A model generated the notes under the pieces. The model saw only the letters and a list, made by a program, of their open reading frames with translations. It was not told the origin of the DNA and searched no databases. Both the position numbers and the translations under genes were made by a program. Positions 6,474 to 59,783 of a stretch of DNA of 64,000 nt are shown one piece after another (the stretch's first letter is position 1; each line of letters opens with the position of its first letter). This DNA comes from Psychrobacter maritimus (GTDB lineage: Bacteria; Pseudomonadota; Gammaproteobacteria; Pseudomonadales; Moraxellaceae): NCBI RefSeq assembly GCF_904846345.1, contig NZ_CAJHAJ010000007.1:1-64000 (forward strand), written 5' to 3'.

Positions 6474-7514
<1,041 letters not shown>

Positions 7515-20433: not shown

Positions 20434-21183
20434 TTAAATAACTTTTGCTTCATTTCTTAGCTTATCGACCAACTCGTCAACTGAACCCACTTTGATACCA
20501 GCTTTACGCTCAGCAGGTGGCACGACTTTGATAATTTCTTGCTTAGATGCCATATCAACACCAAAATCAGCAGGCGTTTTCTCATCAAGTGGCTTTTTCT
20601 TCGCTTTCATGATGTTAGGCAATTTAGCATAACGTGGCTCATTCAAACGTAAGTCAGTGGTAATAACCGCTGGTAGATCAAGCGCTAGGGTCTGTAAACC
20701 ACCGTCGATTTCACGAGTGACATTTACTTTACCGCCATCAACTTTCACTTCTGACGCAAACGTACCCTGACCAATACCCATCAATGCCGCTAGCATCTGA
20801 CCGGTTTGGTTATTATCATCATCAATAGCTTGTTTACCCAACAGGATAATATCGGTAGATTCAGCCTCTGCGATACTTTTTAGGATTTTAGCGATTTGTA
20901 GTGGATAAGGTTTTGCGTCAGTCACTACCAAGACACCACGGTCAGCACCCAATGCTAAAGCTGCACGGATCTGCTCTTGTGACTCTTTTGGACCAATTGA
21001 TGCCACAATGATTTCATCAATCACGCCCGCCTCTTTTAGACGAACCGCTTCTTCAACAGCAATTTCATCAAAAGGGTTGATTGACATTTTAGTGTTAGAT
21101 AAATCTACGCCAGAATTATCAGCTTTTACACGAACTTTTACGTTGTAATCAATGACACGCTTGACCGCTACTAATGCTTTCAT
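20434..21183 (-). CDS. etfB: Electron transfer flavoprotein beta subunit
   Basis: EtfB is the AMP-binding partner of EtfA. The 249-residue protein begins [20 protein letters not shown] and contains the family's [19 protein letters not shown] near residue 35, the AMP loop [12 protein letters not shown], and the C-terminal signature [20 protein letters not shown]. It is the first gene of the pair, with the usual etfB-etfA order. Confidence 0.96.
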
Positions 21184-21648
21184 ACGTTCCTCGTTTATTA
21201 ATGTTATGAATTAAAAATTGCCAGTTAAGAACCAGAGGTTCATCTTTTTCAAACTGTTGTTCAAATCGTCGTTCAAAATACCACTAAAGGTTATTACTAC
21301 AGTAACAGAAATTTTAACTAAACACTCATAAGCCAATCGCCAAAAGTGTCTTGGCATAATACTTGCTTTTTACCAATAATCAAAATTTAAAAGTAAAATA
21401 TTAAAACCTGTTAAAGCTAAGCCAACCGTAATTATCAGACCCATCTATCTTGCGTGAGCACAGTGCTAAGGTCAAGGCAACGCCGTGAATAATGCGTCAT
21501 AAATTTGTCACCACTGTTGCAAAAAGCGTCTATAAGCGCATAAATGAACCATTTATCTTATTAAAAACCGTTAGCAGTACAATATTTATTATGCTTTCTA
21601 TGCTTTACGAATCACTTAACTTGATAATTATCTCTTGATTTAGGCTTC

Positions 21649-21793
21649 TATAGTCAGTCCTAAATAAAATAAGTACAAGTATTATAATGCGCTACTAGTA
21701 TTCATTTTCCTTGCTTGCTGTGCCTACGCAGACAGAGGCTGCGCAAAATGAATACCAGTAGCTCTGTGTTCATTTTATAGCGGATCGCCTATA
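21649..21793. repeat. Dispersed hairpin repeat, copy B (145 bp)
   Basis: Two 18-nt arms (GCTACTAGTATTCATTTT and AAAATGAATACCAGTAGC, one mismatch) enclose a 36-nt core with GCTGTGCCTACGCAGACAGA. The hairpin is flanked by about 42 and 31 bp that are also shared with copy C (59004-59148), which is its reverse complement with about six differences by eye. Length and boundaries are the same in both copies, as for a discrete element. No protein is encoded. Confidence 0.9.
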
Positions 21794-21863
21794 TTCTATT
21801 TAAAATCAATGAGAACAAGCTTAGTGATATTAAATATGTAGTCTATTTTCTTAGAAAATTGCA

Positions 21864-22011: not shown

Positions 22012-22224
22012 TTAGATAGCTTCGATTTGCTCAGCTTGTGGGCCTTTTTTGCCATCACCTAAGATGAAAGACACTTTTTGGCCTTCGGCTAGAGTTTTGA
22101 AACCGTTACCTTGGATAGCGCTGTAGTGAGCGAATACGTCTTGTCCGCCATTGTCTTGAGCGATAAAACCAAAACCTTTAGCTTCATTAAACCACTTTAC
22201 AGTGCCTTCAACTTTATCTGACAT
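22012..22224 (-). CDS. Cold-shock protein, CspA family
   Basis: The 70-residue single cold-shock domain binds single-stranded RNA and DNA and melts mRNA structure. It begins [20 protein letters not shown], with RNP1 (KGFGFI) and RNP2 (VFAHYSAI) in place. The start at 22224 is chosen since AGGA lies 7 nt upstream and the length then matches the family; the frame runs on to 22269 without support. The about 150-nt leader from the predicted promoter is typical of cold-shock mRNAs. Confidence 0.95.
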
Positions 22225-22592
22225 AAATTTTCCTAACTCTTTAACTGTTGGCGAGACGTGTGTCATCACCGATTAATTGATATATACTCAAGTATTTTCT
22301 GCTGAATGCGACGGCTTAAACCCTTGATATATCTAGAAGATATACTATCTGTCCTCGCCTCAAATCCTTTGAGTACAAGCTGATTATAACAGCTTTTCTC
22401 AACTGCAACAGGTTAAATTACTTTTTTTTGTAAATAATTCACTTCTTATGTAAAGGGAATGGTTAGGATGACGTAAATCTATCTAAGCTATTGATTTTCA
22501 TAACTATTTGTCGTTATTTAGCAAACTATAACGAACACTCATCACGTTTTTCTTAATGATAAAATTAATAAATTAACTGTTTAACTCGATAT
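22225..22592. other. Cold-shock gene leader and promoter region
   Basis: It holds the promoter of the csp gene and its untranslated leader. Within the leader is a near-palindrome (around 22325-22350, GATATATCT with a complement having one bulge), and nothing else that can be called. Confidence 0.5.
22383..22391 (-). promoter_or_regulatory. Extended -10 promoter of the cold-shock gene
   Basis: On the minus strand TGTTATAAT, an extended -10 element with perfect TATAAT, lies about 160 nt before the start codon. The -35 region is weak (CTGTTG at 17 bp), as is common with extended -10 promoters. Confidence 0.6.
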
Positions 22593-40677: not shown

Positions 40678-41034
40678 TTATCTTTTGAGAGGGCGTGTCG
40701 GACCCTTACGAGTACGAGCGTTGTTCTTGGTGTTCTGACCTCTAACTGGTAGGTTACGGCGATGGCGGATGCCACGGTAACAACCAAGATCAACCAAACG
40801 CTTGATATTCATTGACACTTCACGACGAAGATCACCTTCAGTCATGTAATTTGCAACTTGTGCACGGATAGCATCTAACTGTGTATCATCTAACTGACTA
40901 ACTTTAGTAGTAGGGGCAATGCCAACTGCTTCTAAGATTTTCTGAGCAGTGGTACGACCTACACCAAAGATGTAAGTTAGTGAAATAACAGCATGCTTAT
41001 TATCCGGAATGTTTACGCCGGCAATACGAGCCAT
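40678..41034 (-). CDS. rpsM: 30S ribosomal protein S13
   Basis: The 118-residue protein starts [20 protein letters not shown] and ends in the basic tail [14 protein letters not shown] that reaches the P-site tRNA. It is the first gene of the classical alpha operon and has a candidate promoter in the spacer upstream. Confidence 0.98.
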
Positions 41035-41079
41035 TGATTTCTCTCCATTAAAGAAAAATAAGCTTTATCTATAGATAAG

Positions 41080-41108
41080 GCGTTATTTTTCAGATTTGTT
41101 GCTGTCAA
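41080..41108 (-). promoter_or_regulatory. Candidate promoter of the alpha operon (rpsM)
   Basis: On the minus strand a perfect TTGACA is followed after 17 bp by TAACGC, with transcription predicted about 40 nt before rpsM. The -35 is ideal while the -10 is weak. Its position matches the alpha-operon start known from E. coli. Confidence 0.45.
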
Positions 41109-55172: not shown

Positions 55173-55221
55173 TGCTATTCTCTTATTTTATAAATTCATG
55201 ACTTTTTATTGTTGCAGATTA

Positions 55222-55391
55222 GGGCGTGTCCTCAATTCAATCGATGGACATCTAAATGGGCTAAAAATGGCTAAATTTTGCCAAACCTCGTCAAATAGCT
55301 GGGTAATATCCCGATATTAACTGCACTATTTTCCTCGTTTGGCTACAATTTATCTCATTTTTATCACCATTTTTAAAATGAGGACACGCCC
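55222..55391. mobile_element. MITE-like element, 170 bp, with 13-bp terminal inverted repeats and TA duplication
   Basis: GGGCGTGTCCTCA at one end and its exact complement at the other enclose 144 bp without coding capacity, and the element is flanked by TTA and TAA, which contain a TA duplication. Such ends resemble those of IS5-family (IS427-group) elements, so a non-autonomous derivative mobilised by such a transposase is likely. It lies between maf and mreD. Confidence 0.75.
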
Positions 55392-55407
55392 TAATAAGCA
55401 TCTAAAA

Positions 55408-57490: not shown

Positions 57491-58648
<1,158 letters not shown>

Positions 58649-59003: not shown

Positions 59004-59148
59004 TATAGGCGATCCGCTATAAAATGAACACAGAGCTACTGGTATTCATTTTGCGCAGCCTCTGTCTGCGTAGGCACAGCAAGCAAGGAAAATGAATACC
59101 AGTAGCGCGTTATAATACTTGTACTTGTTTCATTTAAGATTGACTATA
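59004..59148. repeat. Dispersed hairpin repeat, copy C (145 bp, inverted relative to copy B)
   Basis: This is the reverse complement of copy B with about six differences in 145 bp by eye. The 18-nt arms GCTACTGGTATTCATTTT and AAAATGAATACCAGTAGC pair perfectly. A TATAAT-like element next to one arm is conserved in both. Confidence 0.9.
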
Positions 59149-59468: not shown

Positions 59469-59783
59469 ATGTCACAGCCAACCCCAGCGACTGAAAATAC
59501 TGTCAGCCGTCAAGAAATCTTAGAAGTTGCCCGCCTTGCGCGCTTAGGTGTTGATGAAGACACCGCCAGCAGCTACGCTGACGATATCACCAAAGTACTA
59601 AAGCTGATGCAAACGCTTGGTAATGTAGACACCACCGATATCAAACCCTTGTCAAACATTCATGAAGTTTGCCAAGATTTGCGCGCAGACGTCGCCAAAC
59701 ACGATATCAATCGCGAGCGCAATCAATCAATGGCGCCTGCTGTTGAAGCGGGTCTATACCTTGTGCCACAAGTGATTGAATAA
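59469..59783 (+). CDS. gatC: Glutamyl/aspartyl-tRNA amidotransferase subunit C
   Basis: The 104-residue subunit links GatA and GatB. The conserved part is VSRQEILEVARLARLGVDED and the later DIKPLSNIHEVCQDLRAD. GGAG lies 8 nt before the ATG. First gene of gatCAB. Confidence 0.95.
   Translation: MSQPTPATENTVSRQEILEVARLARLGVDEDTASSYADDITKVLKLMQTLGNVDTTDIKPLSNIHEVCQDLRADVAKHDINRERNQSMAPAVEAGLYLVPQVIE

Follow-up and report, generated by a model that had tools for sequence, protein, structure and literature searches.

As described in PMC2229807 and PMC3049150, the RUP repeat of pneumococcus is 107 bp long, occurs in ~110 copies, is linked to IS630-Spn1 and has a TA target; its transcripts are described as folded, and a review's table lists it without a DNA motif. 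BOX, another interspersed repeat of pneumococcus, is described as having a conserved folded transcript and as being expressed by RNA-seq (PMC3049150), while the Correia repeats of Neisseria (NEMIS or CREE) are described as giving stem-loop transcripts that are cut by RNase III (PMC2229807, PMC10969869). ERIC of the enterobacteria is presented as an intergenic repeat of 127 bp whose transcript folds and which affects mRNA in an orientation-dependent way, and it has been linked with RNase E. Closer in taxonomy, MITEAba12 is described as a 113-bp non-coding MITE of Acinetobacter and one Moraxella genome (PMC6382973), and for P. arcticus a palindrome count gives 2,260 'REPs', as a number only. REP and REPIN palindromes are described as GTAG- or CGTC-tagged (PMC3733652).

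The element described here was found as a pair of copies in a stretch of Psychrobacter DNA of 64,000 nucleotides, the whole of which is called the window below. Like RUP as described, it has ends that resemble those of a resident IS630-family element and a TA target, but it belongs to another genus and has a conserved asymmetric core with a strand-resolved wobble signature. With the Correia repeats, as these are described, it has in common the build of a small MITE, in which the inverted-repeat ends are long and the termini are TA. Correia ends also start with TATAG. The likeness considered here is one of build; RNase III cutting is described for NEMIS and would be a proposal for the present element. 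ERIC is likewise an intergenic repeat with a fold (predicted here), and BOX, which has a modular build (boxA, boxB, boxC), is similar in being interspersed and having a conserved fold. MITEAba12, likewise non-coding and from a member of the same bacterial family, is described with 16-bp ends common with ISAba12 and a 9-bp duplication, compared with ~29-bp IS630-type ends and TA here. No report of this element family was found among the literature matches listed, which were open-licence papers. Its mobility is of a known kind, that of IS630-linked MITEs, and the new part is a core that appears to be selected on one strand as RNA.

Results

A repeated intergenic element and its anatomy

Copies 1 and 2 (Table 1) consist of the same 145 bases in opposite orientation with exactly 6 differences and no gap, recovered by a repeat search of the window as inverted arms of 96% identity over 145 nt with 37,210 nt between them, in agreement with the original prediction of a near-identical intergenic pair with about six differences, 37 kb apart. 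Across the window, 162 24-mers recur as their reverse complement compared with 0 in three mononucleotide shuffles, which excludes chance for the window repeats. The 100-base flanks of the two copies match at only 29 and 24 positions, so that the 145 bp represent the whole repeat and not a piece of a duplicated gene; a duplicated gene was thus rejected as the source of the pair. Copy 1 is flanked by a cold-shock-domain gene (22012-22269, −) on one side and by an ETF-domain gene (20434-21183, −) on the other, copy 2 occupies the gap between divergent mreB-like (57491-58639, −) and gatC-like (59469-59783, +) genes, and no ORF ≥80 aa was found at either copy. A third, diverged family member with the same core is also present in the window.

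Table 1 Positions of the element copies and of their parts in the window
Feature	Position	Strand	Basis or remark
Copy 1, whole element	21649..21793	+ (core-reading); predicted RNA strand −	TA at both ends
Terminal inverted repeat, IS630-type	21649..21677	+	Family alignment, IS ends
Internal hairpin, 76 nt	21689..21764	− (predicted RNA strand)	Covarying stem and conserved core
Core 5' side, CTTGCTTGCTG on canonical strand	21710..21720	+	Conservation
Variable apex	21721..21732	+	65 apex types in 204 parsed elements
Core 3' side, CAGAGGCTGCG	21733..21743	+	Conservation
Terminal inverted repeat, other end	21765..21793	−	Family alignment
Copy 2, whole element	59004..59148	− (canonical); predicted RNA strand +	
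Copy 2, internal hairpin	59033..59108	+ (predicted RNA strand)	R1, 97.0 bits
Third, diverged copy	7274..7415	+	End remains and same core

In the aligned copies the left part reads TATAGTCAGTTC.AAATAAAA..GATACg - spacer - GTGCTACTGGTATAAATTTT. CTTGCTTGCTG - apex and the right part after the apex CAGAGGCTGCG. AAAATTTATACCAGTAGCAC - TGTATCG.TTTTA....GACTATA, while the order on the reverse strand is 5'-GUGCUACUGG...CGCAGCCUCUG-apex-CAGCAAGCAAG...CCAGUAGCAC-3'. Element lengths are mostly 137-148 bp. A total of 254 non-identical elements were gathered, and among the 246 that were judged, 198 have both ends close to the hairpin, 41 have one end, and 7 have neither; both ends were scored at 322 of 4390 random places in the same loci, a control value that is high because up to 3 mismatches in 10 were tolerated when ends were scored. 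The second end falls exactly 29 nt past the hairpin in 145 of the 198 elements with both ends, and in G005, a copy-rich Psychrobacter genome, TA..TA termini occur in 60 of 61 such elements. A core-free search based on ends and stem returned 209 non-identical elements, 206 of which have ≤4 mismatches to the 21 core bases, with 113 of the 206 lying in contigs that were fetched by the core; at the same threshold the core was found in 47 of 48 elements from G005 stretches and in all nine from stretches of three further genomes (G013, G030, and G031). Near position 14281 of L328, one family element is nested in another, each with its own ends.

Two other features of the window may be mentioned. An inverted pair of 35 nt with GGACACGCCCTAAT occurs at 55206-55407, and as a similar string (TAGGGCGTGTCCTC) adjoins an element copy in L004, a second repeat family may exist in the genome. 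Further, the interval 41002-41086 (−) has a match to Rfam Alpha_RBS, beside ORFs that may form a ribosomal protein cluster.

Copy number and distribution

A blastn search of the Psychrobacter genome that contains the window, using the 145 bp, gave 43 matches, three of which are the same places on the other strand, leaving 40 places (54 first-look candidates, 40 scored). The expectation of a mobile, amplified non-coding intergenic element with a hairpin and fixed ends was right; the case set against it at the outset, only two copies in the genus with the flanks of a duplicated gene, does not apply to a multicopy family with unrelated flanks. Other genomes were searched with R1, a covariance model built on the inner hairpin. 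Matches to R1 were present in 99 of 105 Psychrobacter genomes (E up to 1e-3), many of which have ≥45, compared with one of 243 other genomes of the same family (G296, 2 matches), and in a class sample of 369 only the element's own genome was matched (E up to 1e-4, strict filters). The 117 named stretches listed as matches to the core pattern are all from Psychrobacter. G005 holds at least 150 R1 matches, 71 of them in 580 kb, equivalent by density to ~320 per genome. Among the 61 elements of this genome that have both ends (L324-L332, L344-L363), 56 share a length of 138 bp, with a median pairwise identity of 0.971; the copies would represent a recent burst with the mover missing, only fragments of an IS630 transposase having been found there.

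Plasmid matches were limited to four records (two are versions of one), three from Psychrobacter and one from Acinetobacter. Plasmids pAV_175-4 of Acinetobacter variabilis (L151) and pPSYFG1 of Psychrobacter raelei (L152) each carry a copy of the element, and the two copies have identical scores and lie equally far from a gene for a cation diffusion facilitator, which points to transfer between the two genera. No match to the element was found in phage or E. coli, and an origin in either was rejected on this basis. In Rfam, the interval 21600-21840 has no match even at an E value of 5, and neither window copy has a match at gathering score; without a covariance-model match, a known Rfam family was rejected as the identity of the element. 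An ancestral single-copy RNA gene was also rejected as the source, the low-copy genomes that were looked at holding decayed copies, several with end remains, and in an unsystematic look no common locus was noticed among them.

IS630-type ends and TA duplication

The ~29-bp ends of the element resemble the ends of ~915-bp IS630-family insertion sequences of Psychrobacter (end sequences TATAGTCAGTTCAAAATAAAAGAGATACA in L188 and TATAGTTAATCCAGAATAAAAGAGATACA in L031, the latter from the own genome), whose gene matches DDE_3 (E 5e-34), HTH_Tnp_IS630 (E 1.3e-16), and the IS630 transposase model NF033545 (E 2.5e-34). IS630-related genes were detected in 81 of the 105 Psychrobacter genomes, with 18 matches in G011. 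The own genome has two DDE_3 matches, and L031 encodes the HTH_Tnp_IS630 and DDE_3 parts in two frames (1913-2266 and 1420-1986, − strand) that overlap at a run of eight A, which points to a programmed frameshift. The split is also seen in L032, and as many IS630 copies in the genus have open frames of 187-192 aa, programmed frameshifting may be common.

The two window sites did not give a clean view of the target, as the four relatives listed per site lack the element and have diverged local sequence, and duplication was for this reason sought elsewhere, in stretches collinear between G005 and G013. Four of the nine filled and empty pairs listed are clean, each fitting a TA duplication, while the other five show slight differences at the junctions or contain a nested element. 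The target duplications looked for at the boundaries thus fit the four clean pairs and were not seen cleanly at the window copies themselves; a candidate for the matching transposase lies in the IS630 family with its resembling ends and not in the Y1 group, whose genes have no hairpin within 1.5 kb on each side. Short, non-coding, and with terminal inverted repeats and TA duplication, the element is a MITE, one of the classes named in the original prediction, and with ends common to resident IS630 it is an IS630-derived one. Movement by IS630 is supported by the matching ends and the empty sites, while the identity of the particular transposase that acts is a prediction.

For several copy-rich genomes the source of mobility may lie elsewhere. 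G005 has transposase fragments only, and no IS630 gene was found in G001, G045, or G055; with the assemblies of G001 and G045 split over several contigs, a gene may be missed there, and in general the mover may be gone, missed, or from another source. In 2.79 Mb examined, 158 G005-type ends were located, 150 of which precede a hairpin, and at the eight that do not, no IS630 was evident, leaving no candidate for an IS630 that carries G005-type ends. The two insertion sequences that were checked (L031 and L032) do not contain the element's hairpin. Adjoining the decayed IS630 copy of L032 is a second MITE-like palindrome (2084-2236) with the same end sequence, the inner part of which resembles an insertion-sequence end (GATACAGTCCATATCATGAAAA), without the conserved core or an R1 match.

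A covarying hairpin with a conserved core

In 30 copies from the own genome, the stem has 59 double-change cells compared with 18.0 in shuffles (sd 3.2) and a covariation score of 0.233 compared with 0.095. The same was true for 150 rows from 100 named loci (three of the rows being antisense readings of already counted places), with 430 double-change cells compared with 148 in shuffles and 18 pairs with a double change, a number reached by 23 of 500 shuffles. The covariation goes beyond the controls, as in a structured RNA.

Conservation was counted on 90 representatives (80% clustering) of 234 elements, 20 of the 254 having been dropped for core mismatches (>2 in either core half), contig edges, or a poor core score. 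The two core halves reach 0.97 and 0.94, compared with 0.77 and 0.75 for the arms and 0.66 and 0.57 for the ends, values for the core that are inflated, as an exact core pattern had served to fetch the named contigs and the core filter was applied. In 97 of the 254 elements the exact pattern used for fetching is absent; in this set, which has the opposite bias, the core halves have on average ~1.0 and ~1.4 mismatches in 11, and the resulting conservation of ~0.91 and ~0.87 is still above that of the arms and ends. In low-copy genomes the decayed copies have lost parts of the core too. The element thus contains a hairpin of ~76 nt in which a covarying stem surrounds an asymmetric core that is better conserved than the stem or the ends.

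The strand probably under selection

A mismatch that reads as G.U from one strand appears as A.C when the opposite strand is read, and strand-symmetric mutation would yield equal gains of both. On the core-reading strand, gains of A.C and G.T number 141:64 (p 8e-8; parsimony on a tree of 148 representatives; 139:64 in an earlier run), with A.C ahead in 13 of 18 columns and G.T in four, and 120:64 without the most skewed column. The direction is the same in the own genome (22:8), named contigs (89:51), and other genomes (30:6), the species of which are partly common, and row counts show the same excess at clustering levels as low as 70% (56:26). First counts on the 150 rows with three antisense readings lost significance at 80% and 70% clustering, and the larger set keeps it at both. 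As R1 favours G.U on the core-reading strand, the search works against the observed bias. Among 68 hairpins from G005, 137 mismatches are A.C and 4 are G.T (closely related copies that are not independent), and 25 of the 68 are hybrids with two wobbles that are permitted on the reverse strand; the opposite hybrid was not seen among them.

Pairs formed between the two end repeats of the same elements served as a control. Here parsimony gives 128 A.C and 158 G.T (p 0.09) and row counts give 156 and 216 (p 0.002), the opposite lean. Minimum free energy favours the reverse strand weakly, in 86 compared with 61 of 148 elements (p 0.06) and in 40 compared with 23 of 64 in a smaller set (p 0.02). An excess of A.C on the core-reading strand indicates that G.U pairs are kept on the other, and the absence of this bias from the end repeats points to selection on the reverse-strand RNA, which is the − strand for the copy at 21649 and the + strand for that at 59004. 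A single-stranded DNA hairpin would yield the same bias; the reverse strand thus seems to be under selection as RNA or, less likely, as single-stranded DNA.

Genomic context and transcription signals

Only two of 233 elements lie inside an ORF ≥100 aa. For 212 elements with both neighbours called, the RNA strand in tandem gaps is sense in 85 and antisense in 50 (p 0.003), and the remaining gaps are convergent (44) or divergent (33), with genes called as longest-ORF guesses and orthologous copies included. A second set of 84 hits gave 25:17, or 24:17 without two shared copies (p 0.35), which is not significant. The RNA strand of copy 1 runs in the direction of both neighbouring genes, and that of copy 2 runs with gatC and against mreB. 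No promoter-like site or intrinsic terminator was found inside either window copy. The suggestion that the repeat could encode a small structured RNA gains support from the covariation and the strand-specific wobble, while the TATAAT-like box that was thought to be kept beside one arm does not hold as a promoter, being TATAAT in copy 1, TATAAC in copy 2, and not kept in 30 aligned copies.

Discussion

The reading that we consider probable is that the element is an IS630-group MITE mobilised in trans, with a hairpin selected as reverse-strand RNA and a core that likely sets the fate of transcripts. An IS630-family transposase would recognise the ~29-bp ends and insert the element at TA, which would be duplicated, and transcription of neighbouring genes would then carry the copy into RNA. 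There, the reverse strand is predicted to fold to a rod with the conserved asymmetric core as an internal loop, a fold that, judging by the covariation and the strand-specific G.U wobble, would be kept by selection. The core may be a binding or cleavage site that sets the processing or stability of the transcripts containing it, an effect that could make insertions tolerable or useful. By analogy with NEMIS and ERIC, the most likely role of the RNA would be in mRNA processing or stability.

A plain IS630 MITE, in which the interior is a passenger, symmetry is kept up by template switching or gene conversion, and the core is shared by descent, is an unlikely alternative. Its account of mobility is identical and well supported, part of the core conservation is a product of how the copies were fetched, and palindromes can stay symmetric without selection through quasi-palindrome correction and gene conversion, so that upkeep of this kind is possible on general grounds. 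Such correction, however, would not put A.C ahead of G.T on a single strand, the core stands above the arms and ends even in elements that were not fetched by it, and the variety of the apices, 65 types in 204, indicates that the copies are not simply young.

It is less probable again that the hairpin acts at the DNA level, being extruded, or single-stranded on one strand, while replication or transposition takes place, with the transposase or a protein of the host binding it so as to promote movement. The wobble bias would be expected of a single-stranded DNA hairpin as well, and the core could be the protein site, but IS630 and Tc1-mariner elements move through double-stranded ends with TA duplication, which the filled and empty pairs fit, and IS630 is numerous in some genomes (as in G011) and lacks the hairpin in L031 and L032. 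Least of all is to be said for a REP/REPIN family with a RAYT (Y1) transposase as its mover, as the original prediction had suggested, which is highly improbable and was rejected: the element is intergenic, palindromic, and of high copy number and its own genome has three Y1_Tnp matches, but REP/REPIN families have a linked RAYT and no TA duplication, while the ends here are IS630-type (TATAG...CTATA) with TA duplication, and the 1.5 kb on each side of the Y1 genes is free of the hairpin.

Returning to an RNA-selected IS630 MITE, its wider significance would be that of a mobile RNA module, with the transposon spreading a one-strand-selected hairpin that is recognised by a protein or nuclease to hundreds of places genome-wide, an idea that we hold tentatively. 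Descriptions of MITEs mostly treat them as remnants of insertion sequences, with transcripts that fold by chance. In the present element, selection seems to maintain the fold on one particular strand, round a core conserved more strongly than the ends of the transposon. The comparison of wobbles and mismatches, with the end repeats as an inner control, is reusable on other palindromic repeats, and with one genome holding, by density, hundreds of near-identical copies, the question whether MITE hairpins act as RNA becomes directly testable. If the idea is true, a transposon would have installed a genome-wide site of post-transcriptional control in one genus.
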